A stretch of 44,069 nucleotides of DNA from Coriobacteriales bacterium (GTDB lineage Bacteria > Actinomycetota > Coriobacteriia > Coriobacteriales > UBA8131). Positions 2,628 to 37,065 of the stretch are shown here, in pieces (within the stretch, counting starts at the first letter, position 1; every line of letters begins with the position of its first letter). The translations under genes and the position numbers were made by a program. The stretch covers positions 1 through 44,069 of the forward strand of contig JAISLY010000035.1 in NCBI GenBank assembly GCA_031277035.1, given 5' to 3'. Under the pieces are notes generated by a model that did not search any database, had not been told where the DNA came from, and saw nothing but the letters and a program-made list of their open reading frames with translations.

Positions 2628-2930
2628 TCACGGGCGCTTGCGGCTGAAGCGATAGGCGATAAACGCGACAAGCCCAACAATGAGCGCGACCAGCGCCACA
2701 AACCACACAATCACAAGCAGATGTTCCTGTGGCTGCTCTATCACGCTTTGGATATACCGCAAAAACGCATTCGCTGGCTCGGTTGCGCCAAGCTCCTCCG
2801 GCGTCGGGCCATAGGGCTCCGGAGTCAAAGTGTCATCCGGCGGTGGGCCGTAGAGTTCCTGACCCGGCAGATCATCCGGCGGTGGGCCGTAGAGTGCCTG
2901 CTGTCCAACAGTGCTTACCGTGTTGGCCAT
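2628..2930 (-). CDS. Small membrane peptide with YGPPPDD repeats, candidate radical SAM target
   Basis: A 100-residue protein starting 6 bases after the stop of the radical SAM gene, so the two are almost certainly co-translated. The N-terminal half holds LYGPPPDD twice, 13 residues apart, and a third degenerate copy PYGPTPEE. At DNA level the first two form a 24-base direct repeat at 2833-2856 and 2872-2895. There is no signal peptide. Residues of about 70-92 form one hydrophobic membrane segment, followed by RFSRKRP. By the positive-inside rule the tail is cytosolic and the repeats would face outward. Repeated tyrosine/proline motifs beside a SPASM-type radical SAM enzyme suggest a modified peptide, in the manner of the TIGR04133/TIGR04134 enzyme-lipoprotein pairs as I recall them. 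Modification is inference. The gene itself is well supported by context and composition. Confidence 0.8.
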   Translation of the reverse strand: MANTVSTVGQQALYGPPPDDLPGQELYGPPPDDTLTPEPYGPTPEELGATEPANAFLRYIQSVIEQPQEHLLVIVWFVALVALIVGLVAFIAYRFSRKRP

Positions 2931-2936
2931 GCTTCC

Positions 2937-4157
2937 TCACCGCCCCCTCTCCCGCTCGAAATCAAGCATCTTCTTGATACATTTCCTCTGCGTCCTCGCC
3001 TCAAAGTCAAAAGAATGTCTGCTTCCTCCACGACACGCGTCCCATACGTCGCAGGCATCGCAGAACTCGGAGAACATTATATCCCGGTTCCTGTGAAAGT
3101 GGTATCTGGTATCCCAGACTTCAAGTATGTCGAGATTAATGTCCTGGTCGTATATGTTTCCCTGTATGGTATCGTCGTGAGCGGGTATATTGGGGCAGGC
3201 TGCCACGTCTCCATTGTGGAGAATGGACATGGTCTCCTGGCCAGCAGAGCAATGAAACGGATGATCCCGCACCCGCTGCTCATACTCCCCGAGATGCGAC
3301 GGACAGGCATAGATGATTGGGAGGCGCTCATCGCTATGGCTCACGATGAACTCGAACAGTTCCCGGTGCTGGGCGCCGGTAAGCATCAGGCTCTCATCCG
3401 CTCTGCCAATCGGGTCGGTGGAGGCAAGGCGCCATGACGTCAGGCCGAGCGGAAGAAGGACCGCGTGGAGCGTCTCGAGCTCGTCCATATTATGGGGATT
3501 GACCACCGTCGTTACCTGAATGCGCTTGAACACCCTGTTCTTCGTCATGTTGATAAGATTGGCCATCGTCGTCTCATACGAGCCGGGAGCGTTCCGTTGT
3601 GTGTCATGGGTCGCTCCATAGCCGTCCAGGGACACCGATACCGTGCTCATGCCCGCCTGCGCCAACCGGGCGGCGGTGCCGGGGGACAGCGCAACCCCAT
3701 TGCTTGTCATGCCCCACGTATAGCCAAGCTCCCTGAAGGCCACGTGCATGACCTCGGAAAGGTCTTTGCGCACCAGAGGTTCTCCGCCCGTAATCGCCAG
3801 GAAGGGAAGCGGCCAGCCTCTCGCTTCCAGCCGCCGTTTGAGCAGGTCAAGCACAGCGATAAAGTCAGCGCCCGGTATGTCCTTTGAAGTGGCAGAAGAG
3901 GCATTTGAGCCACAGTGCCTGCAGTATTGATTGCATTGCAGGGTGCATTCCCAGAATAAGGTGCGCAGGGGATAGGGATTCGGATGCGGATTCGGAGGGG
4001 CCGCACTCGGACGGGCCTCACTCGGATGGGCCGCACTCGGACGGGCCGTGCGGTGGTGGGCCGTGCGGTGGTGGGCTGCACGGTTGCTGGCGTCTTTGGT
4101 CGCACGCTTTTCTATATATGCCCTGATAAGGCCATAGCCGGTTTCCCTGAAATCCAT
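2937..4157 (-). CDS. Radical SAM/SPASM protein, TIGR04133-like maturase
   Basis: About 406 residues. After a low-complexity Arg/Ala/His/Pro stretch (roughly residues 18-60), the catalytic core opens with LFWECTLQCNQYCRHCGSNA, holding the CxxxCxxC motif for the [4Fe-4S]-SAM cluster. AITGGEPLVRKD is the usual GGEP motif. The C-terminal SPASM region has C-x12-GxxxxC, then CDACDVWDAC (CxxCx5C) and a late QRKC, for auxiliary clusters. The Cys expected four residues after CDACDVWDAC is Ser. Motifs such as ECTLxCNxxCxHCGS and CRGGS resemble the family TIGR04133 of peptide-modifying enzymes. The next gene, 6 bases on, encodes the YGPPPDD peptide, its likely substrate. An OPT transporter gene lies 38 bases upstream. 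AGGAGG precedes the ATG at 4157. Class assignment is firm; peptide modification is inferred. Confidence 0.9.
   Translation of the reverse strand: MDFRETGYGLIRAYIEKRATKDASNRAAHHRTAHHRTARPSAAHPSEARPSAAPPNPHPNPYPLRTLFWECTLQCNQYCRHCGSNASSATSKDIPGADFIAVLDLLKRRLEARGWPLPFLAITGGEPLVRKDLSEVMHVAFRELGYTWGMTSNGVALSPGTAARLAQAGMSTVSVSLDGYGATHDTQRNAPGSYETTMANLINMTKNRVFKRIQVTTVVNPHNMDELETLHAVLLPLGLTSWRLASTDPIGRADESLMLTGAQHRELFEFIVSHSDERLPIIYACPSHLGEYEQRVRDHPFHCSAGQETMSILHNGDVAACPNIPAHDDTIQGNIYDQDINLDILEVWDTRYHFHRNRDIMFSEFCDACDVWDACRGGSRHSFDFEARTQRKCIKKMLDFERERGR
4001..4085. repeat. 15-base in-frame tandem repeats in the radical SAM gene
   Basis: Units such as ACTCGGACGGGCCGC and CGTGCGGTGGTGGGC repeat in 15-base steps and encode the Arg/Ala/His-rich N-terminal linker. 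The unit length keeps the frame when copies are gained or lost. Confidence 0.75.
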
Positions 4158-4195
4158 CGTGATGTCCCTCCTGCCTCCGTCAGCTTCGCCAGGGC

Positions 4196-5989
4196 TCAGC
4201 CGCCGAGACCCCTGAGAACAGTACCGAGCGCAACGAGTACCCCGGCGGTGGATTCGCCGCCCAGCAGACCGGAGGCAAAAATGAGTCCGCGTCCCGCAGA
4301 GGCCTGTTCGCGCCTGTCTCGCTCATCAGGCGGCAGCTTGGCGCGACAACGTCTGCCTGCGAGGTCGTAGACGACCTTTGCCATCGCACCCAGAAAGGCC
4401 GAAAAGGAGAGGTAGAAGGGCAGATAGATGCCCAATCCGAGCATCATCGCGGGAAGCCCGAGCACGGAAAGGAGCAGGCCGACGCCCAGGCCGATTGCAA
4501 AGGCGGCGGGCGAAGGAATGCCCGAGACCATCGTCGCCACGATGGATGCCTGGGCTGAGACAAAACTGCCCTGCGGGCCAAAGGAGGTTGGCCCAAAGGC
4601 CCGCAGCAAAACGACCATGACAAGCACGGCGACAAGGGCACCGAGCACGGCTCCGATAGCCTGCCCAATCCACTGCGCACGAGGGTCGGTTCCAAGGATG
4701 TGGCCAGCCTTAAAGTCGTTCATCACGTCGCCCGCCAGGCCACAGGCCACCGCAACGATGCCGGCGACGAAGAAAAGTTGCACGAGCGAGGCCGAGGCAA
4801 AAGCCGCAACCGCAAGGAGTACGAGGAGCCCGAATATCTCCATCGGGTCGATTCCGGTCTGCCCGACGCTCTGTGAGCTCATGGCCGTCGTAACCCAGAC
4901 GAGAGCGACAACGACGACTGAGACGAGGGGGCCAAGGCCAAGGAGAAAACAGAGGGCCAGTGCGGCCGAGGCCATGACAAGGGTGACCAGCGCGGCGGTC
5001 GTGCGCGTGCGGAGGCGTGAGGCGGGCGACGGAGAAGGCGCGGCCTGCGCGGAGGGCGCGGAGGGCGCGTCCTCCACAGAAAGCGCGGCCTGCGCGTCCT
5101 CCACAGAAAGTTCGTCCTCCACAGAAGGCGCGTCCTGCGCGTCCTGCGCGGCACCCGCAGAAACGGAGCGCGACGTACCAAAGGGTTGCGGCAATCGCGG
5201 CAGGAGAATCCGTACGATGACGCCAAAGCCCGCACCCATCATCACACCCATGCCCAGACTCGCGGTGATGCCCTGTCCGGTAGCAAGGTCCCACCAACCA
5301 AGGGATATGCCGCCAAACATGATGCCAAAGTTGCCGAGCACGGCACCGATGAACCAGGTTACGACCGCGCCGGTACCAACCAGAAAACCGACGGCCAGCA
5401 GCATCGGCGAGTTATAGATGCCAAAGGCCACGCCGGGGATGGCAAGGTTACCAAAAAACATCGTTGGAATAACGCCCAGCCAGTCTCGCAAAAGCGTGTA
5501 GAGGCCAGCCAGGCCAAGGGAGCCAAAGAGCCTGACGCCCGTGCGCCCGCCGTTCTCGCCAGCAATCAGCGTCTGGGCGGCCGCCTCACCGATGGGAAAG
5601 GGAAGCCCGGCCTTCTCCACAAAATGCCTGCGTAACAAAACCGTGCAGAGCAGTCCAAGGGCAACACCCGTAAGCGCCACGACGAGCATCTGCCACCAGG
5701 AAACCTCCTCAGCGTGCCCGAGCATCCAGATGCCGGGGATGGTAAAGGCCAGACCGCCGGCAACCATGGCACCTGCGGACATGACCGTATGGGTCACATT
5801 TGCCTCGTGCAGATTCGTATGCCCAAGCGCCTTGAGGAAAAACAGCGAGATGATTGCCGCAAAGATAATCGGCCAGGGCAAGGCCCCCATCTTCAATGCG
5901 GTGTAGACTGAGGTCGCTGTGATGAGAATACAGCCCGCGCAGCCGATAACGATGCCGCGTACGGTCAGTTGACCCTTGAGTTGCCGCAT
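4196..5989 (-). CDS. OPT/YSL-family oligopeptide or metal-chelate transporter
   Basis: About 597 residues, of the usual size for prokaryotic OPT-superfamily carriers. The ATG at 5989 (MRQLKGQLTVRG) is preceded by GAGGGAGC and fits the family N-terminus; the longer open frame upstream is not protein-like. The sequence has many membrane segments, with typical segments such as VYTALKMGALPWPII, FPIGEAAAQTLIAG and the paired hydrophobic repeats of the family. A large hydrophilic loop in the middle is a low-complexity SVEDAPSA-type stretch encoded by tandem repeats near 5038-5150. OPT members carry peptides or metal chelates, mostly inward with protons. Position just before a radical SAM enzyme and its candidate peptide suggests a role in moving a peptide, a fragment, or a metal, but nothing in the sequence decides between these. 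Confidence 0.88.
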   Translation of the reverse strand: MRQLKGQLTVRGIVIGCAGCILITATSVYTALKMGALPWPIIFAAIISLFFLKALGHTNLHEANVTHTVMSAGAMVAGGLAFTIPGIWMLGHAEEVSWWQMLVVALTGVALGLLCTVLLRRHFVEKAGLPFPIGEAAAQTLIAGENGGRTGVRLFGSLGLAGLYTLLRDWLGVIPTMFFGNLAIPGVAFGIYNSPMLLAVGFLVGTGAVVTWFIGAVLGNFGIMFGGISLGWWDLATGQGITASLGMGVMMGAGFGVIVRILLPRLPQPFGTSRSVSAGAAQDAQDAPSVEDELSVEDAQAALSVEDAPSAPSAQAAPSPSPASRLRTRTTAALVTLVMASAALALCFLLGLGPLVSVVVVALVWVTTAMSSQSVGQTGIDPMEIFGLLVLLAVAAFASASLVQLFFVAGIVAVACGLAGDVMNDFKAGHILGTDPRAQWIGQAIGAVLGALVAVLVMVVLLRAFGPTSFGPQGSFVSAQASIVATMVSGIPSPAAFAIGLGVGLLLSVLGLPAMMLGLGIYLPFYLSFSAFLGAMAKVVYDLAGRRCRAKLPPDERDRREQASAGRGLIFASGLLGGESTAGVLVALGTVLRGLGG

Positions 5990-28279: not shown

Positions 28280-29137
28280 TCAACTTCCCCCGCCTTTCCT
28301 GCCTTCCCTGCGGTAGATGAGCCAGTAGGCGACACCGACAAAGAGAGCTCCGCCGATGATGTTGCCGACGGTGACAATCGAGAGGTTGTAAAAGACCCCG
28401 GAAAGCTCGACGACGGGCAAGGTGGCACCATCTGCGACGAGTCCTTGGCCTGCCTGGCCTGTCAGCCAGCCCATCGGTAAGAAGAACATATTGGCCACGC
28501 AGTGCTCAAAGCCGCAGGCCACAAAGGCGGTTATCGGCAAAAGTATGGCAAAGAACTTATCGGTGACGGTGCGTGCCGCATAGGCAACCCAGACCGCGAG
28601 ACAGACCAGGAAGTTGCACATGATGCCCTTGAAGAGCAGTACGCTCCAGGGCTGGCCGATTTTGCCGGCAGCGACGGTGAGCATCGTGGCTCCCAGGGCA
28701 CCGGTGTTGGTCTGGGCGTAGTCCGCGAAGAAAAGCAGGGCCACGAGCAGAAGTGCCCCTGCGAAGTTGCCCAGGTAGACGACGACCCAGTTTCTGAGCA
28801 TCCCCCGCCAGGAAAATCGCCTGGAGAGCCTGCCCACCATCATCAATGCGTTGCCGGTGAACAGCTCGGCACCCGCGGTGATGACGAGAAACAGGCCCGT
28901 GCAGAACGCCAGGCCGCCGAGGATGGCCGCAACCGCGGGCGAGAGGGCCGCGTCGGACTTGATAAGCAGCATGAACATGCCACCAAAGCCGATGAAGATG
29001 CCTGCCATGACAGCCAGCAGGAAGGTCTGCCCCAAAGGCATTTGAGCCTTGACCGCCCCAACGTCCTCGGCCTTGCCCGCTATCTCGGCAGGACTGAGGG
29101 CATCCGGTTTGAGTGTCTTGAGATCCTTCGCGTCCAT
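28280..29137 (-). CDS. focA: Formate/nitrite transporter family channel
   Basis: About 285 residues with six membrane segments, of the pentameric FNT family. Features: LAVMAGIFIGFGGMF, ITAGAELFTGNALMM, GNFAGALLLV, KGIMCNFLVCLAVWVA, AFVACGFEHCVANMFFLPMG with the conserved His of the FNT pore. It is the last gene of the C1 operon, three bases after the folD stop, next to genes that make and use formate through formyl-THF. Formate is thus the likely substrate, though nitrite or hydrosulfide channels share the fold. Confidence 0.93.
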   Translation of the reverse strand: MDAKDLKTLKPDALSPAEIAGKAEDVGAVKAQMPLGQTFLLAVMAGIFIGFGGMFMLLIKSDAALSPAVAAILGGLAFCTGLFLVITAGAELFTGNALMMVGRLSRRFSWRGMLRNWVVVYLGNFAGALLLVALLFFADYAQTNTGALGATMLTVAAGKIGQPWSVLLFKGIMCNFLVCLAVWVAYAARTVTDKFFAILLPITAFVACGFEHCVANMFFLPMGWLTGQAGQGLVADGATLPVVELSGVFYNLSIVTVGNIIGGALFVGVAYWLIYRREGRKGGGS

Positions 29138-29140
29138 CGC

Positions 29141-30142
29141 TCAGAGCACGCTTCCTGCGGCCTGTGCGGGGCTCGCGGGGCTCGCGGCGTTCGCGGGGTT
29201 TGCGGCCTGTACGGAGCTCGCGGCGGGTGCGGGGTGTGCGGCGGGTGCGAGGCTCGCGGCCTGTGCGGCCTGTGCGGCCTCGACGACATGCTTCATGAGC
29301 ACGCTCGTCGTCACGGTACCCACGCCCCCCGGCACGGGCGTGATGGCGTCGACGATGCCCGAAGCCGCCTCAAAATCCACGTCGCCGACAAGATTGCCCT
29401 GCTCGGTGACGTTGATGCCAACATCTACGACGACCTGGCCCGGTGAGAGATATGCGGCCGTTACCATCTTAGCACGTCCCACACAGGCAATGACAATCTC
29501 GGCGCGGCTGACAAGGTCGGGCAGGTTTTTTGTGCGCGAATGGCAGATGGTCACCGTCGCGTGTCGGTCGAGCAGCATCATCGCGACCGGCTTGCCAACA
29601 ACAAGGCTGCGACCAACGACAACGGCCTGTCTCCCTTTGACCTCGATACCAAAATGCTCCAGTATCTCCATGCAGGCCTGCGGCGTACAGGGGGCAAAAC
29701 CGGAAGACCGGTTCGCGCTCTGCCGTCCGTCAGCTCCCGCTCCTGCTCCCGTAAAGACGCCCACCGCAGAGGCATCGGTGATGCCGTCGATGTCCTTTTC
29801 GGGCAAAAGGCGGTTGCGCACGACATCCTCGTCGATGTGTCCAGGCAGCGGGCGAAACATCAACACACCATGTATCCGCGCATCGGCGTTCAACTGATCG
29901 ACAGCTGCCAGGAGCACATCCTGCGTAACCTCCTCGGGGACAACAAGGTTTTGCACGGCAACGCCAACCTTCTCGGCCCGCTTGGTCGCGCCCCGTTCAT
30001 ACGAGATGTCCTGGCCGCGTTCTCCGACGCGCAGAATCGCAAGCGTCGGTGTGACGCCCTGAGCTTTAAGGGCCTCAACCTCTGCTGCCACACGAGCGTT
30101 CAGGGCGTCGGCGACGTCTGTTCCTCTGAGAATGCTGGCCAT
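29141..30142 (-). CDS. folD: Methylene-THF dehydrogenase, FolD variant probably lacking cyclohydrolase
   Basis: About 333 residues. The dehydrogenase fold and NAD(P) site are intact (VVVGRSLVVGKPVAMMLL, DVGINV, ITPVPGGVGTVT). The cyclohydrolase site is not: E. coli FolD has Tyr50-x3-Lys54 and Gln98 (VQLPLP). Here Tyr48 is kept, but Ala52 takes the Lys54 position (nearest Lys at +6), and Phe96 takes the Gln98 position (LMFRPLP). The Asp in EKDIDG is kept. So it should oxidise or form methylene-THF only, leaving the hydrolysis to FchA next door. The C-terminus carries a 45-residue Ala/Pro/Ser/Gln tail from GC-rich repeats (29145-29280). AAGGAGG precedes the ATG. Confidence 0.94.
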   Translation of the reverse strand: MASILRGTDVADALNARVAAEVEALKAQGVTPTLAILRVGERGQDISYERGATKRAEKVGVAVQNLVVPEEVTQDVLLAAVDQLNADARIHGVLMFRPLPGHIDEDVVRNRLLPEKDIDGITDASAVGVFTGAGAGADGRQSANRSSGFAPCTPQACMEILEHFGIEVKGRQAVVVGRSLVVGKPVAMMLLDRHATVTICHSRTKNLPDLVSRAEIVIACVGRAKMVTAAYLSPGQVVVDVGINVTEQGNLVGDVDFEAASGIVDAITPVPGGVGTVTTSVLMKHVVEAAQAAQAASLAPAAHPAPAASSVQAANPANAASPASPAQAAGSVL

Positions 30143-30241: not shown

Positions 30242-30877
30242 CTAGGTGACAAATCGCTTCGCCACATCGGCAAAGATGGCGTCGGCTTTGGGAACAAAGC
30301 GTGCGAGCAGCGCGTTTGCCTGTTCATTGGTCTGCTCGGCAAAGGCGCTATCCGTCATCGACTTCGTGTTGATGAAGACGTTGAGGCTCGCGGCCTGAAG
30401 CGCCGCCTTGCAGCAGGCGACGCCGCAGCCCACATCGCTCAGAGCAATGGCGGTTCCCTTTGCGGCAAACGCTTCGTGCAGATCAATCGCCTCGCAGCAG
30501 CGCTCCATGATCTGAAGCGGCACGGCAACGCATTCCCTGAGAGAAGCCTCCATCACCTCAGCCTTATGGGCCCTTTGCGCCTCGGTCTCCTTTGGCAGGC
30601 CGTAGGCTGCGGCCAGGGGCTCAAAGACCTCCGCGTCGCGGGCAACCAGGCGGATAAGGTCGTGCTGGAGCGCGTCGGCCCTCGCTTTGAGCATGACGAT
30701 GTCGTCATGCACGCTGGCATATTTCGGCTTGCCCACGGTCAGCGAGCCCACCATATTACCAAGCGCCACACCGATGGCGCCGACGAGGGCCGACGCGCCG
30801 CCGCCGCCGGGTGCCGGCGCTGCCGAGGCAAGCACCTCAATGAACTCCTCACAGCTCAACTGCGTAGACGCCGTCAT
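30242..30877 (-). CDS. fchA: Methenyl-THF cyclohydrolase FchA (formiminotransferase-cyclodeaminase family)
   Basis: About 211 residues, all-helical, of the cyclodeaminase/cyclohydrolase family: APAPGGGGASALVGAIGVALGNMVGSL and LSDVGCGVACCKAALQAASLNVFIN. It interconverts methenyl-THF and 10-formyl-THF. Its presence between fhs and folD complements the FolD that lacks cyclohydrolase residues. Chosen ATG at 30877 follows GGGAGAGG. The gap to folD is 99 bases and contains GGCATGCC near both ends, with no other feature. Alternative roles (glutamate formiminotransferase partner) are unlikely, since no formiminotransferase is present. Confidence 0.93.
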   Translation of the reverse strand: MTASTQLSCEEFIEVLASAAPAPGGGGASALVGAIGVALGNMVGSLTVGKPKYASVHDDIVMLKARADALQHDLIRLVARDAEVFEPLAAAYGLPKETEAQRAHKAEVMEASLRECVAVPLQIMERCCEAIDLHEAFAAKGTAIALSDVGCGVACCKAALQAASLNVFINTKSMTDSAFAEQTNEQANALLARFVPKADAIFADVAKRFVT

Positions 30878-30905
30878 TTTTACATCCTCTCCCTGCCTGA
30901 CACAG

Positions 30906-31009
30906 AGTGGGGACAGGGGGACGGTTCGTGCGTCCTGCGCCCCCAACTGCGTTCAACTGCGTGAACGCCCCCGTCCGTGGGACGCGTGAACCGTCCCTCT
31001 GTCCCCACT
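30906..31009. repeat. REP-like hairpin between fhs and fchA
   Basis: AGTGGGGACAGGGGGACGG with TTC (30906-30927) pairs with GAACCGTCCCTCTGTCCCC plus ACT (30988-31009) with one mismatch; pairing continues inward through GCGTCC/GGACGC. CTCTGTCCCCACT is then repeated directly up to about 31020. It lies inside the C1 operon and could attenuate expression of fchA-folD-focA. Confidence 0.85.
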
Positions 31010-31027: not shown

Positions 31028-32701
31028 TTAAAACAGACCGCGTATCCGGCCCTCGTCATCCACGTCAATCCGCTCGGCCGCCGGCACCTTGGGCAGCCCC
31101 GGCATCGTCATAATCTCACCGGTCAGCGCAACGATAAAGCCAGCACCGGCTGAGACCTTGAGGTTGCGTACCGTGATGCGAAAGCCGCGCGGGGCACCAG
31201 ACAGCGTGGCGTCATCCGAGAAGGAATACTGCGTCTTGGCCACACAGACAGGCAAGGTTCCAAAGCCGAGCGCGGTCAACTTCTCGGCCTGCGCACGCGC
31301 CTGCGACGTAAAGTCCACGCCGTCGGCGTGATAGATTCGAGTAGCGATGGCATGCAGCTTCTCTTCGATGGAGGCGTCAAGCTCGTAGCTGAAGGTAAAG
31401 GTGCTGGGCTGCTCCGCAGCGCGTATGACCTCCTCGGCCAATCTCAGGGCGCCTGCGCCTCCCCGAGCCCAGTGCTCAGCCAAAACCGCGGTGACACCCA
31501 GTTCGCGGCAGCTCTCCTCAACGAGCGTAAGCTCGGCGGGCGTGTCGGTTGGAAAGGCGTTGATGGCAACAACGACCGGAAGTCCGTAGACCTCAGTGAT
31601 GTTGGAGACGTGCTGGAGCAGGTTGGGCAGTCCGGCCCTCAGTGCCTCGAGGTCGGGGGTCGCGAGCTGGTCTTTAGGCGCCCCGCCGTGCATTTTGAGC
31701 GCCCGCACCGTCGCGACGATAACGACCGCAGCGGGTTTAAGCCCGGCGAGGCGACATTTGATGTCGAGGAACTTCTCCGCGCCAAGGTCGGCCCCAAAGC
31801 CGGCCTCGGTGATAGCGTAATCGCCCAACTTGAGCGCCAGGCGGGTTGCCATGACCGAGTTACAGCCGTGGGCGATATTGGCAAAGGGGCCACCGTGGAC
31901 AAAAGCGGGCGTGTGCTCAAGGGTCTGTACGAGATTGGGCTTCAGGGCATCTTTGAGCAGAGCGGTGAGAGCGCCCGCGGCTTTCAGTTGGCCGGCAGTC
32001 ACCGGCTCACCAGAACGGTTGTAGGCGACGATGATGCGCGCGAGGCGTTCCTTGAGGTCGGATACCGAGGTGGCGAGGCAGAAGACGGCCATGATCTCGG
32101 AGGCGACGGTGATGTCGTAGCCATCTTCTCGCGGAATGCCGTTTGTCCTCCCGCCGAGGCCGTCGACGACGAAGCGCAACTGGCGATCGTTCATGTCCAC
32201 ACAGCGCTTCCAGGTGATGGCGCGGGTGTCGATGTCGAGTTCGTTGCCCTGATGGATGTGGTTATCAAGCAGGGCGGCAAGGAGGTTGTTCGCCGCGCCG
32301 ATGGCATGAAAGTCGCCCGTGAAGTGCAGATTGATGTCCTCCATCGGCACAACCTGGGCAAAGCCGCCACCCGCCGCACCGCCTTTGACGCCAAAGACCG
32401 GCCCGAGTGAAGGCTCACGAAGCGCTACGAGCGCCTTTTTGCCAAGACGGGAAAGGCCGTCCGCCAGACCGACCGTCGTCGTGGTCTTGCCTTCGCCTGC
32501 AGGCGTAGGGGTTATGGCCGTAACCAGGATGAGCCTGCCGTCGGGCTCGGTGGAAGTACTGAGAAGCCGGTAGTCTATCTTGGCCTTGTGGTTGCCGTAG
32601 AGCTCCACGAAGGCTGCGTCGATGCCGGCCTTCTCGGCAATGGTAGAGATGTGCTCCAGTTTTGCTTCCTGCGCTATCTCGATATCTGACTGATACTCCA
32701 C
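31028..32701 (-). CDS. fhs: Formate-tetrahydrofolate ligase
   Basis: About 557 residues, the usual family length. It makes 10-formyl-THF from formate, THF and ATP, the entry step of the methyl branch. Motifs: [20 protein letters not shown] (nucleotide loop), [20 protein letters not shown], and [16 protein letters not shown]. The start is GTG at 32701 after AGAGGA; an ATG nearby is in another frame. It follows the methyltransferase gene after 101 bases. Confidence 0.97.
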
Positions 32702-32802
32702 GGGGCATTCCTCTTTCCTTGTTTTGACGTGTGCTTCACACGCAGGCGGGCAGGACATTGATACCAAGGGCGGCGCGGGTGCAGGTGCCGACCTCACACA
32801 GC

Positions 32803-33609
32803 TCACGCGGGCTTCACCGGGAAGAGGCCCTCGCGATAGGCGGTCAGATAGTCCATGCAGTACTCGTCGTTGCCAAGCAGGGCGTCGGTGGCCTTGAGCG
32901 TGGCCTGCATATCGGGCGACATCGGATCCATGATGGCGCTGTCCATGCCGGCGGCCATCGCGAGACAGAGAAACTGCATGTTGATGGCCTTGCGGTAGGG
33001 CATACCAAAGCTGATGTTGGAAAGCCCCGAGGTAAAGTGCACTTCGGGGAACTCCGCCCTGATACGCGCGATGCCCTCGGTGAAGTTCAAAAGCGAGTCC
33101 TGCTTCGTTGCCAGGGTGGTGACCAGCGGGTCGAAGAAGATGCGCTCGCGTTTGATACCAGCTTCATCGGCCTCGGCAACAATCTTCCGGGCAATCTCAA
33201 GCTTGATTTTCGGATCGTCGGGGATGCCGTTGTTATCGCAGGTCAAAGCGATAACGCCCCAGTCGCTGCCTGCAATGACCGGAAAGACGGCCTCCGTCTT
33301 GCCCTCCTCCTTGGAGACGGAGTTGATAAGGCCGGGCTTGTGCGCCAGCGGCATCAGCTCCATGAGAAGCTGCGGATCCGAGCTGTCGAGACACAGCGGG
33401 GTGTCCACCGTCTCCTGGGTGATGTCGATGAGCCATTGCATGGTCTCACGCTCAAGTTCGGGGGCAACGCCCGCGCAGATGTCGAGGTAGTCCGCTCCGC
33501 CCTCGGTCTGTCCCTTGGCGATGGAGCGGATGTAGTCCGCGTCCTTTTCCTGGATAGCCGCCAGGGTCTTGGGTATGAACCCGTTGATTTTCTCGCCGAT
33601 GATGATCAT
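32803..33609 (-). CDS. acsE: Methyl-THF:corrinoid methyltransferase (AcsE-like)
   Basis: About 268 residues, a pterin-binding TIM barrel. Motifs: [10 protein letters not shown] at the N-terminus, [29 protein letters not shown] and [11 protein letters not shown], which supplies the Asn used in methyl-THF activation. AcsE passes the methyl group of methyl-THF to a corrinoid iron-sulfur protein; relatives act on other corrinoid proteins in demethylation. No corrinoid protein or CO dehydrogenase gene is in the window, so the partner is encoded elsewhere and the direction of flow is open. The start overlaps the metF-metV stop by four bases (ATGA). Confidence 0.9.
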
Positions 33610-35291
33610 TTCTGAATCCCTTCTGTCCGTTGTTCGAGCGGCAACAGGCCTGTCCGTTGGCCACGCGGCGGCAGGCTGATGCGCCTCGCCGCGTTATCCC
33701 GCTCGTGCGTGTAGTTGCTCCACCCAGAGGTCTCATAGAAGTCCCAATTGTTGGGTGGCGTGATAAAGCTGTCGAGCTTGTCGAGTTCATCGTAGCGCTT
33801 CAGGCGATGATACGCCTTGAAATAAATGCAGTAGCGCTCGCCCGGATAGACCTCACACCAGCCCTCGGTGCTGCCGCCGCAGGGGCCGTTGCGCTGGCAT
33901 TTGGGGCACTGCGTCATCGGGCAGGTGTAAATCGCCGCCTCCAGGCCGCAGTCGCCACAGTCCATGCAGCCGTACAGAATGGTCTTGCCGAGATGTTCCA
34001 GAGCATGAGAGCGGTGCAGGCCCTTTTTGCGCTCCCTGCGGTCCATGACCGCCGCGAGCAGGCCGTAGAAGCCCCTGTTGCGCGTGAGCACAAGACGGTG
34101 AAAGAAGCGCGAGAGGCCGTAGCCGCGCATCAGCTTACGGGTGCGGACGACCTCGGTGCGCGGGGCCTCGGTGCGCGGGCTTTCGGTGCGCGGGGCCTCG
34201 GTGCGCGGGGCCTCGACGAGTGCGGACGCGGAGGCGGGTGCGGGGGCCTCGGTGCGGACGACCGCGCTGTGCGAGGCCTCGCTGCCCTGGGGCGTGTAGA
34301 AGAAAAATCCGCCGGGCTTGCCGTAGGTCAGTTCAAGCGCCCAATCCTGCCAATGTTCCTGTAGTTCCTCGGCCGCATCGAGAATGTGGTTAAAGACGTC
34401 GACCGTGATGCCAAAGCCGCCGATATGGACGCCCGCATACCCCTGGCCCCGCGCAATGGCAATCATCTTCGCGGCGCGCAGATGCCGCGCGGCCGCGCCC
34501 CTGTCCTCGGCTTTTGCCTCCTGTTCGAGGGTGGCCATCAGCTCATCGGAGATTGAGCAGCCCGCTATCGAGCCCGCACGCATCATGTGCGCGGCACCGA
34601 CGGTCAGCAGAAAGACATTCGCGATCAAAGGTGTGCGGTAACCGCGTTCACGCAGGTAGGTGAGCACCTCCTGCATCTTGTGGGAGTCGTAGCCAAGCTG
34701 TGAGATGATAAAACGGGCACCCGCGCATATCTTCTTCTCCAGCTTCAGGTACTGGGTCATCGTCTCGCCCTCGGTGTATTTAAAGGGATTGACAACCGCT
34801 CCGGCGAAGAAATGCGCGGGTGCCTCACGAAATTCGCCTTTGGCGGTCTGCTGGGTAAGGCCCTCGTTCATATCGCCAATCATCATCAGAAGCTGGACGG
34901 GGTCGAGGTCAAAGACCGGGCGACCGCGCCCCTGCCAGCCTGTTGTCTGGTAGTCTCCGGACATGACGAGGAGGTTCTCGATACCGGTGCGCTGCAGGGC
35001 GTAAAACTGCGACTGGAACTGGTTGCGGCTGCGATCCTTACAGGTCATATGGACAAGCGGCGTGATTTTGTGGTCAAAGAAGTCGTGCGCAAAGGCGTCG
35101 GCGAGCAGTGCGGGATTACCGCTTGGATTGTCGGTGATGGAGACCGCGTGCGTCCGTCCGGTTTCCCAGATGGCCTGAGCCTCCTCAAATTCCCTGCGCT
35201 GAGCCGACTCATTGGCTCCCCGACCGGGAATGATTTCGCAGGTGACGACAAACTCCCCCGACTGAAGGGCCTCGCGCAGTCTATTGGCCAT
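33606..35291 (-). CDS. metF: MetF-MetV fusion: methylene-THF reductase with zinc-binding domain
   Basis: About 561 residues. Residues 1-335 are a MetF-type TIM barrel (FVVTCEIIPGRG, HMTCKDRSRNQ, LLVMSGDY, FISQLGYD-like). Residues of about 340-381 are a low-complexity linker of PRTEA units. The rest holds the MetV part: CMDCGDCGLEAAIYTC, CPKCQRNGPCGG and WCEVYPGERYC, a cluster of ten or so Cys between about 440 and 490 that may bind zinc or Fe-S. In acetogens MetF and MetV are normally separate subunits; here they form one chain. Its product, methyl-THF, is used by the next gene. The start is the ATG at 35291 with GGAGGAG seven bases before; an ATG at 35306 overlaps that site and is unlikely. 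Confidence 0.93.
   Translation of the reverse strand: MANRLREALQSGEFVVTCEIIPGRGANESAQRREFEEAQAIWETGRTHAVSITDNPSGNPALLADAFAHDFFDHKITPLVHMTCKDRSRNQFQSQFYALQRTGIENLLVMSGDYQTTGWQGRGRPVFDLDPVQLLMMIGDMNEGLTQQTAKGEFREAPAHFFAGAVVNPFKYTEGETMTQYLKLEKKICAGARFIISQLGYDSHKMQEVLTYLRERGYRTPLIANVFLLTVGAAHMMRAGSIAGCSISDELMATLEQEAKAEDRGAAARHLRAAKMIAIARGQGYAGVHIGGFGITVDVFNHILDAAEELQEHWQDWALELTYGKPGGFFFYTPQGSEASHSAVVRTEAPAPASASALVEAPRTEAPRTESPRTEAPRTEVVRTRKLMRGYGLSRFFHRLVLTRNRGFYGLLAAVMDRRERKKGLHRSHALEHLGKTILYGCMDCGDCGLEAAIYTCPMTQCPKCQRNGPCGGSTEGWCEVYPGERYCIYFKAYHRLKRYDELDKLDSFITPPNNWDFYETSGWSNYTHERDNAARRISLPPRGQRTGLLPLEQRTEGIQK
34148..34215. repeat. 15-base in-frame tandem repeat in the MetF-MetV linker
   Basis: Units of GGGGCCTCGGTGCGC repeat about four times with small changes and encode RTEAP-type units between the two enzyme domains. 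Confidence 0.8.
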
Positions 35292-35410
35292 ACCGAGCTC
35301 CTCCATGTGTAACGTGTCGATACCGGGCGCCCAGGAAACGTCCCCTGAAAAGCTGTCCCTCCATTAAACGGAAAGCCCTCGCGCGGGTACAAGCAGGTCT
35401 CGGGCATCAC

Positions 35411-35452
35411 GTGCACTTTGCGCAGTTTGACCCCCTGACATTGTGCACTTTG
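35411..35452. promoter_or_regulatory. Direct repeat GTGCACTTTG in the divergent metF/pucR-type promoter region
   Basis: GTGCACTTTG occurs at 35411-35420 and 35443-35452, 32 bases apart, about three helical turns. Each contains the palindrome GTGCAC. It lies between the C1 operon and its divergent regulator, the natural place for that regulator's operator. Confidence 0.55.
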
Positions 35453-35544
35453 TTGCGAAAACGGCTCAGAGCACATTGGCACCTGCCCGCAATCGTCGGC
35501 ACAATCGCCCTGCGTTTCGGCTACAATGGAGTGCAAGGAGCCCT

Positions 35545-37065
35545 ATGGAGTTAAACCTGCATATCATCGGCGAGGACCTGAAGAGGTACCGGCCCCAAAG
35601 CCGTATCGAGGAGGACTACGGGGTGCGTCGTCTGCGCTTTCCGGCGCTTTTCGACGGCAACCAGACCAAGCGCAGCCTGCTCTACATCGTCGAAAGCGGC
35701 CTGCTGACGCCGGACAACATCGAACTTGTCACCGAACAGTCCAGTCTTCTCATCATTGGCAAGCCCCCTTCGCGCCTTTTGAAGAAGCACTGTAACCTCG
35801 TCTGGATTGAGAAGGGCGCAAGGCTCTCACAGATATTTTCCGAGGTGGTCGAGCTCTTCTCCACCTATGAGACCTGGAGCGACCGGATGCTCAACGCTCT
35901 CATCTCAAAAAAGCAGCTCAAACGCCTCGGCGAGCTGGCCGGCCCTGTGGTAAAGCGGCCTTTGTACCTCATCGATTCGCATCTGCAGATGCTCTTTTCT
36001 GTCGTTGACAGGGAGCTGTACCAGCTGCCACGCGACTACCTGCAGCCGAGCATCGACAACAACAACCCGGCGCTTGGCGTCTTTGCGCTGGACCGCTTCT
36101 ACGACGACGCGCTGACGCACCGCAAGCCCTTCCTGTTGCCGGAAAACCGCAGCTACCGAACGCTGGTGCAGAATATCTTTGTTGACAGTCATCTGGTGGC
36201 AACGCTTTCCTTCGATGAGGTGGGCGGGGGCTTTACCCAACGCGATTACGCCCTGATCGTCATCCTCGCGGAGTTTATCGCCAATGGTATCTCCTATCAC
36301 GACGAGTGGAACACCTCGGCGCCGCAACTCCTTGACGAGCAGATACATCTGCTGCTCGACGGGCGACAGCCCAATGCCGAAGAGCTGAGCTCCGCACTGA
36401 GGACGATGGGTTGGATGATTGAGGAGTCCTATTACTGCATTGTGGCCACGCCGCTCAACCCGCTCTACCCGAGCGGCCTGCTCGCGGCAAATGCCCGCCA
36501 CGCCTGCGCGCAGGCGAGCCACATGATCTACGCCATCTATGACCATACCATCATCTTTATCGTAAACGCCGACCACGCCACGTTCTCGCACGACGAGATT
36601 GTTGAGCTGGTGACCAGCGAGTTGGATCGTCTGCTGGTGCAGCTTGGGGTGAGCAACATTTTCAATGGCTTTGCGATGCTTGGCGTGCACTGCCGCCTTG
36701 CCCGGGCCGCGCAGCAACTCGGAAGCCAGCAGGATCCGGATCGGGCGGTCTACCGTTTTCAGGATTACTTCCTGGCCTATCTGGTTGCCCGCGTTAAGGA
36801 GAGCACGCCGCTGGAGGCAATCATCCCCCGGGGGCTTCTCCAACTGAAGCGCTACGACGAGAAGTACGGCACCGACTTTGTGCACGTCTTTCGGGTCTTT
36901 CTCAAAAACGACATGCGCATTGCCTCGGCGGCGCGTGAGCTTTTTTTGCACCGCAATACCCTCTCACACAAAATCTCGCAGATAAAGTTCATCACGCGTC
37001 TGGATTTTGAGAACGACCCGGACGTGCGCCTGAGCGCCCTCATCGCGCTGAACATGATGGAGTGA
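35545..37065 (+). CDS. PucR-type helix-turn-helix regulator, divergent from the C1 operon
   Basis: About 506 residues. The C-terminus has the PucR-family winged/HTH_30 region: FVHVFRVFLKNDMRIASAARELFLHRNTLSHKISQI. The middle (about 100-290) has a sensory-type, GAF-like segment (LYLIDSHLQMLFSVVD, FALDRFYDD). No membrane segment is seen. AAGGAG precedes the ATG at 35545. The adjacent divergent operon suggests control of one-carbon metabolism in response to a soluble metabolite. It is convergent with the second Tat flavoprotein. Confidence 0.87.
   Translation: MELNLHIIGEDLKRYRPQSRIEEDYGVRRLRFPALFDGNQTKRSLLYIVESGLLTPDNIELVTEQSSLLIIGKPPSRLLKKHCNLVWIEKGARLSQIFSEVVELFSTYETWSDRMLNALISKKQLKRLGELAGPVVKRPLYLIDSHLQMLFSVVDRELYQLPRDYLQPSIDNNNPALGVFALDRFYDDALTHRKPFLLPENRSYRTLVQNIFVDSHLVATLSFDEVGGGFTQRDYALIVILAEFIANGISYHDEWNTSAPQLLDEQIHLLLDGRQPNAEELSSALRTMGWMIEESYYCIVATPLNPLYPSGLLAANARHACAQASHMIYAIYDHTIIFIVNADHATFSHDEIVELVTSELDRLLVQLGVSNIFNGFAMLGVHCRLARAAQQLGSQQDPDRAVYRFQDYFLAYLVARVKESTPLEAIIPRGLLQLKRYDEKYGTDFVHVFRVFLKNDMRIASAARELFLHRNTLSHKISQIKFITRLDFENDPDVRLSALIALNMME

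Follow-up and report, generated by a model that had tools for sequence, protein, structure and literature searches.

A FolD with two cyclohydrolase residues replaced, encoded beside fchA in a Coriobacteriales one-carbon operon, is predicted to be a dehydrogenase-only enzyme

This locus raises the question whether a FolD in which two residues of the cyclohydrolase site are replaced still runs both steps, or leaves the methenyl-THF cyclohydrolase step to the FchA encoded next to it. The window (the whole stretch of DNA analysed, 44,069 nucleotides of contig JAISLY010000035.1, Coriobacteriales assembly GCA_031277035.1) carries folD at 29141..30142 on the minus strand, encoding 333 amino acids. 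An earlier note on this DNA had claimed that Ala52 and Phe96 stand at the positions of E. coli Lys54 and Gln98, that Tyr48 and the KDIDG aspartate are kept, that fchA lies immediately upstream in the same operon, and that the two steps are split between the two proteins.

The residue readings hold. Alignment with E. coli K-12 FolD (L098) and the codons read from the DNA, all on the minus strand, place Ala52 (29987..29989) at the cyclohydrolase lysine, Lys54, and Phe96 (29855..29857) at Gln98. Tyr48 (29999..30001) corresponds to Tyr50 and is kept, as is Asp119 (29786..29788), the second Asp of KDIDG, which corresponds to Asp121; Arg97 (29852..29854) replaces Leu99, a change that the earlier note had not mentioned. 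The human MTHFD1 alignment gives the same register, with Ala52 at Lys56 and Phe96 at Gln100. A shift in register bringing a lysine into the active site is ruled out: the segment from Tyr48 to Gly60 has no indel against E. coli, window Lys54 pairs with E. coli Lys56 and not with the catalytic Lys54, and E. coli has both lysines. The earlier note had suggested looking for an alignment with a lysine at the active-site position; none was found, and Ala52 stands there against both the E. coli and the human protein.

The protein belongs to the FolD family by its Pfam matches (PF00763, 108.4 bits against a cut-off of 32.8; PF02882, 193 bits against 27). Its AlphaFold2 model, made from 25 aligned sequences, has a mean pLDDT of 91 and a helix at residues 43-59 that spans the Ala52 segment; TM scores of 0.78-0.82 (by query length) to solved FolDs such as 4b4u, 3p2o, human 1a4i and E. 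coli 5o28 point to the FolD fold. The window protein shares this predicted fold with E. coli FolD and the human MTHFD1 domain, together with Tyr50/52, Asp121/125 and the Gly-rich PGGVG loop (Gly272, Gly273 and Gly275 retained), whereas it differs from them at Lys54/56 (Ala), Gln98/100 (Phe), Leu99/101 (Arg) and Pro265/277 (Thr). It thus has neither of the two residues that mark a bifunctional FolD, the cyclohydrolase lysine (Ala52) and the glutamine that positions it (Phe96). Thirty NCBIfam models of bifunctional FolD matched, and all 25 of those listed were below their cut-offs (the best at 262 against 421). The window FolD ends in roughly 40 residues rich in Ala and Pro (about 293-333; 29141-29263) and has some 12 residues inserted in a loop (about 132-146; about 29705-29750); its 24 aligned relatives have neither, and the model has low confidence in both regions.

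The replaced residues have assigned roles. In E. coli FolD, the cyclohydrolase is described as using Lys54 for general acid-base catalysis and Gln98 to position this lysine; Asp121 is named alongside Gln98 as having an assigned role (PMC3338484). The human equivalents are Lys56 and Gln100, and Leu101 is also among the seven residues given as key (PMC3368264); three of these seven are replaced in the window FolD and four kept. The E. coli variant K54N is reported to have undetectable cyclohydrolase and about 19% of the dehydrogenase activity, and Q98H about 1% and about 8%, respectively; both arose as carolacton-resistance mutations, and hydrolysis of methenyl-THF is described in the same work as also spontaneous (PMC5688156). 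The earlier statement that Lys54 is needed for cyclohydrolase but dispensable for dehydrogenase thus stands in its first half, while the K54N figure for dehydrogenase speaks against the second. Given Ala and Phe at positions 54 and 98 together with these mutant data, we predict that the window FolD works as a dehydrogenase and has no useful cyclohydrolase activity; some residual cyclohydrolase activity may persist.

A total of 295 FolDs were read, and removing L001, L002 and L036 (duplicates or a fragment) left 292 distinct proteins. These comprise 141 of the window's type (A-type), 109 with the Lys/Gln pair, 27 of a second type and 15 others. Since this replacement pattern is common to 141 of 292 proteins, it is not chance. 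Position 54 of the A-types is Ala in 136, Ile in three and Leu in two, and position 98 is Phe in 113, Leu in 23 and Met in five; Tyr and Asp are kept in every one of the 141. Pro265 is Pro in 105 of the 107 Lys/Gln FolDs that have a residue aligned at this column, in none of 140 A-types and in two of the 27 proteins of the second type. The neighbourhood sorts in the same way: of the 141 A-types, 125 are preceded by a same-strand fchA no more than 400 nt away (median gap 21 nt), another is an FchA fusion, and 15 have no adjacent fchA. Adjacent fchA was found for none of the 109 Lys/Gln FolDs.

Could another basic residue have taken the place of the lost lysine? On such a reading the window FolD would still be bifunctional, with Lys54, Arg55 or Arg97 of the window protein in the acid-base role and FchA adding capacity. 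Basic residues do lie near the site in most A-types (Lys at window position 54 in 123 of 141, Arg55 in 124, Arg97, which is position 99 in E. coli, in 126), but E. coli also has a lysine matching window Lys54 besides its catalytic Lys54, and K54N has no detectable cyclohydrolase despite this Lys56 (PMC5688156). Nor is Arg97 universal, being Ala in eight A-types and Ser in six, and those of them that are listed are still paired with fchA. We consider continued bifunctionality improbable. For a dehydrogenase-only A-type, because K54N and Q98H also cut the dehydrogenase of E. coli FolD, the subfamily probably carries compensating changes, for which Arg97 and the change at Pro265 are candidates. 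By analogy with the same mutations, which confer carolacton resistance on E. coli FolD, A-type FolDs are predicted to be naturally insensitive to carolacton.

The neighbouring genes agree with a division of labour. As the earlier note had it, fchA (30242..30946, minus strand; probable ATG at 30877, giving 211 amino acids) is directly upstream of folD, its end 99 nt from the folD ATG on the same strand. The pair is part of a run of minus-strand one-carbon genes in the order methylenetetrahydrofolate reductase (33606..35306; PF02219, PF12225), AcsE-like methyltetrahydrofolate:corrinoid methyltransferase (32803..33609; NF005719, 335.7 bits against a cut-off of 259; PF00809), fhs for formate-tetrahydrofolate ligase (31028..32806; NF010030, 914.8 bits against 652; PF01268), fchA, folD and, as the last gene, a FocA-like transporter of the formate/nitrite family (28280..29137; PF01226, 253 bits; TIGR04060, 246 bits, below its cut-off of 290). 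A PucR-type regulator gene (35443..37065, plus strand; PF13556, PF17853) is divergent from the run and may regulate it. The reductase is a single protein in which a repetitive low-complexity linker joins an MTHFR (MetF) domain to an MTHFR C-terminal (MetV-like) domain. By its gene content, the operon encodes the formate-to-methyl-THF branch of one-carbon metabolism; CdhC/AcsB had no match in the source genome, which is 72.7% complete.

The product of fchA looks intact. It matches the FTCD_C domain (PF04961, 216 bits), and it keeps Asp104, Pro143, Asp171 and Asn193 (ORF numbering), residues that do not vary among the 180 aligned homologues. Its score against the NCBIfam FchA model NF045657 is 191.8 bits, under the cut-off of 275, which was likewise missed by all 44 genomes of the window's class with a match and by all 86 in a second genome set (both described below); since no genome in either set reached it, this cut-off is strict. 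One might read the neighbour as a formiminotetrahydrofolate cyclodeaminase that serves the breakdown of histidine or purines rather than a cyclohydrolase partner, given that it is of the same Pfam family, FTCD_C, and scores below the FchA cut-off. Yet among solved structures it matches 7vg4 best, an entry deposited as a methenyltetrahydrofolate cyclohydrolase, at 145 bits, compared with 85 bits for the FTCD cyclodeaminase 1tt9; its neighbours are fhs and folD, with no formiminotransferase gene beside it; and in the FchA tree it clusters with the FchAs encoded in other A-type operons and is separate from the homologues of Lys/Gln genomes. A cyclodeaminase of this kind is very improbable here. 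On another reading, FolD has lost both activities and persists as a remnant or a structural subunit, and the cell relies on a different dehydrogenase. This draws on the lowered dehydrogenase of E. coli Q98H and K54N (PMC5688156), but is extremely improbable: Tyr, Asp and the residues of the Gly-rich loop are kept, the gene is inside the formate-to-methyl-THF operon, and this FolD is the sole PF00763 match in a source genome of 1.82 Mb in 62 contigs (72.7% complete).

We regard it as very probable that this is a dehydrogenase-only FolD co-inherited with an FchA that does the cyclohydrolase step. FolD would catalyse the 5,10-methylene-tetrahydrofolate dehydrogenase step and would have lost, or barely run, the methenyl-THF cyclohydrolase step, as Ala stands in place of the general acid-base lysine and Phe in place of its positioning glutamine. 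FchA, encoded just upstream, would take that step, and the two, with Fhs, the MetF/MetV-like reductase and the AcsE-like methyltransferase, would form the formate-to-methyl-THF branch. The enzyme activities, the direction of flux and any contact between FolD and FchA are what we infer from the genes. The split that the earlier note proposed is thus well supported by inference from residues, linkage, co-occurrence and the E. coli mutants.

Co-occurrence was followed in two genome sets. The class set holds 119 genomes of the window's class, with FolD in 117 and an FchA homologue in 44; FolD residues were read in 90. All 44 FchA-positive genomes were without a Lys/Gln FolD, and all 46 FchA-negative genomes read had one. 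In one genus of this class (code g8) both types of FolD occur and every A-type is accompanied by fchA, a pattern that we regard as the strongest evidence that fchA and folD form a putative functional unit. The second set holds 149 genomes of the phylum of Ruminococcaceae bacterium D5 (G125, locus L144), with FolD in 142 and an FchA homologue in 86. Residues were read in 106 of the 149; the choice took in most of the FchA-positive genomes for which a FolD was listed, the FchA-negative genomes whose listed FolDs scored lowest, and the 30 top-scoring loci. A Lys/Gln FolD was present in all 36 FchA-negative genomes read; 48 genomes were without one, all of them FchA-positive, and 22 FchA-positive genomes had one. 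These 22 rule out a rule that any FchA homologue implies loss of the lysine, and FchA presence alone predicts nothing.

The FchA homologues of Lys/Gln genomes look like histidine-pathway cyclodeaminases, because they are outside the clade of A-type partners and because a formiminotransferase gene is adjacent or nearby at four of the seven loci tested; an amidohydrolase gene was found at one and a D-Ala-D-Ala ligase gene at two. At L305 and L309, in genomes with a Lys/Gln FolD, FTCD_C-family genes lie near a D-Ala-D-Ala ligase gene.

A further 80 named loci, the best 80 of 588, were found with A-type sequence patterns, so residues 98-99 were partly selected. All 80 are without Lys and Gln and with Tyr and Asp, and fchA is in the fetched flank of 68. 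For the other 12, FchA is elsewhere in 11 genomes. The exception, G119 (locus L102), has one FolD, of A-type, and no FchA was found in this 1.4 Mb MAG, where the locus reaches the contig end.

The earlier note had also framed the case as one in which FolD lost its residues in this organism and was compensated by FchA; the FolD phylogeny goes against this, showing one old clade that travels with fchA. In a tree of 159 rows built without columns 54, 98 and 121, all 75 A-type rows fall on one side of a single branch (SH-aLRT 89, rising to 98 when the first row is left out); a separate clade (99) holds 15 Lys/Glu rows and the two Leu rows. A more careful tree of 78 rows gives supports of 100/98 for the A-type (30 rows) and 100/99 for the second type (17 rows). 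The A-type spans three phyla, Actinomycetota (Coriobacteriia), Bacillota and Spirochaetota (Treponema). The window FolD groups with Coriobacteriales/Eggerthellaceae MAGs (L099, L100, L102, L103, L106, L114) inside a mostly Bacillota branch, away from the other A-types of its class, which suggests that fchA-folD was acquired by transfer. The pair would then have been inherited, probably horizontally, as a cassette of an old A-type subfamily, rather than by loss within the lineage. Co-inheritance with FchA is an observation, as are the residues, the operon, the intact FchA and the clade; since all A-types belong to a single clade, the counts of genomes are not independent and the association rests on few evolutionary events, a long co-inheritance and not dozens of independent losses. 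In the FchA tree, A-type partners fall together with the second-type partners L278 and L279 in a 60-row group (96), a further group (95) takes in most partners of the second type, and the homologues of Lys/Gln genomes are mostly outside both, several on long branches.

The second type has Lys/Glu at positions 54 and 98 in 25 of its 27 members, and Leu at 54 with Leu or Met at 98 in the other two. Its fchA is directly downstream in 20 of 27, and the remaining seven are in FchA-positive genomes. Loci L222-L238 and L240, for example, keep Lys54 and have Glu98, mostly Ser at Pro265, and fchA directly downstream. In an AU test, a tree holding the A-type, the second type and L257 together was not rejected (p-AU 0.469). 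A tentative extension, which we consider rather unlikely as a whole, is that the A-type (Ala/Phe) and the second type (Lys/Glu, fchA downstream) are two arms of one ancient dehydrogenase-only lineage that forms a physical pair with FchA and passes methenyl-THF to it; Gln98 and Pro265 would have been lost in common, and the lysine would have gone afterwards, once in the A-type arm and a second time in L241/L242, with the cassette replacing bifunctional FolD and A-types insensitive to carolacton.

One FolD-FchA fusion was found, at L052 (G102; 2866-4551), a single open frame of 562 amino acids in which a low-complexity linker joins a FolD of Ala/Met type to FchA, the only fused frame among the loci scanned. 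Because the two are fused there, L052 supports FolD and FchA working on consecutive steps. The same genome also carries a separate fchA-folD pair (L051). At L270, L271, L273, L276, L277 and L299, in several genomes of the second set, two neighbouring FolD paralogues have Lys/Gln/Asp in one copy and Gln54/Glu121 in the other (one with His98); such paralogues may act as a mixed pair.

Dividing the two steps between FolD and FchA is itself an old arrangement, widespread among anaerobic bacteria and described before. In work by Aluri et al. in 2016, the FolD and FchA of Clostridium perfringens reportedly act as separate dehydrogenase and cyclohydrolase, that FolD being said to be monofunctional though annotated as bifunctional. 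By description, the C. perfringens FolD/FchA/Fhs system shows the division of labour proposed here, and the window fchA, in the same genome and operon as folD, has the arrangement of that kind. The Wood-Ljungdahl fhs-fchA-folD genes of Clostridium autoethanogenum, on evenly spaced consecutive locus tags (PMC9618320), and of C. ljungdahlii, where fchA, folD and fhs are named in a gene-arrangement legend (PMC8515935), resemble the window by gene set. Collinsella aerofaciens has an A-type FolD (WP_138112908.1) about 50% identical to that of the window, with the fchA homologue WP_171021518.1 2 nt upstream (NZ_OY725717.1) and no fhs among the listed neighbours; its record is named bifunctional beside a gene of the cyclodeaminase/cyclohydrolase family, so the earlier expectation that such a gene would be annotated as bifunctional is confirmed in a relative. 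Since FchA-MtdA of Clostridium formicaceticum and Alkaliphilus metalliredigens is already described as a single bifunctional enzyme that carries out both steps, running at about 37 kDa on gels (PMC12844395), joining the dehydrogenase and cyclohydrolase activities is not new as such; by description, the L052 fusion differs in having FolD first, FchA second and 562 amino acids.

New here are the residue signature, the fchA-linked second type with Lys54/Glu98, the natural FolD-FchA fusion and the predicted carolacton insensitivity. A literature search that left out most subscription journals found no paper tying FolD residues 54 and 98 to fchA, nor one with the second type or the fusion, and we make no claim of priority. 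Acetogen papers still call folD bifunctional beside fchA (PMC10103890), and it is also listed as bifunctional in the one-carbon maps of many anaerobes of the gut, rumen and termite gut. For A-type genomes this is probably wrong, and fchA should be counted as needed. The signature at positions 54, 98, 99 and 265 sorts FolDs from sequence; carolacton, which depends on Lys54, is predicted not to inhibit those of A-type, and the signature marks FolD-FchA pairs as candidates for channelling.
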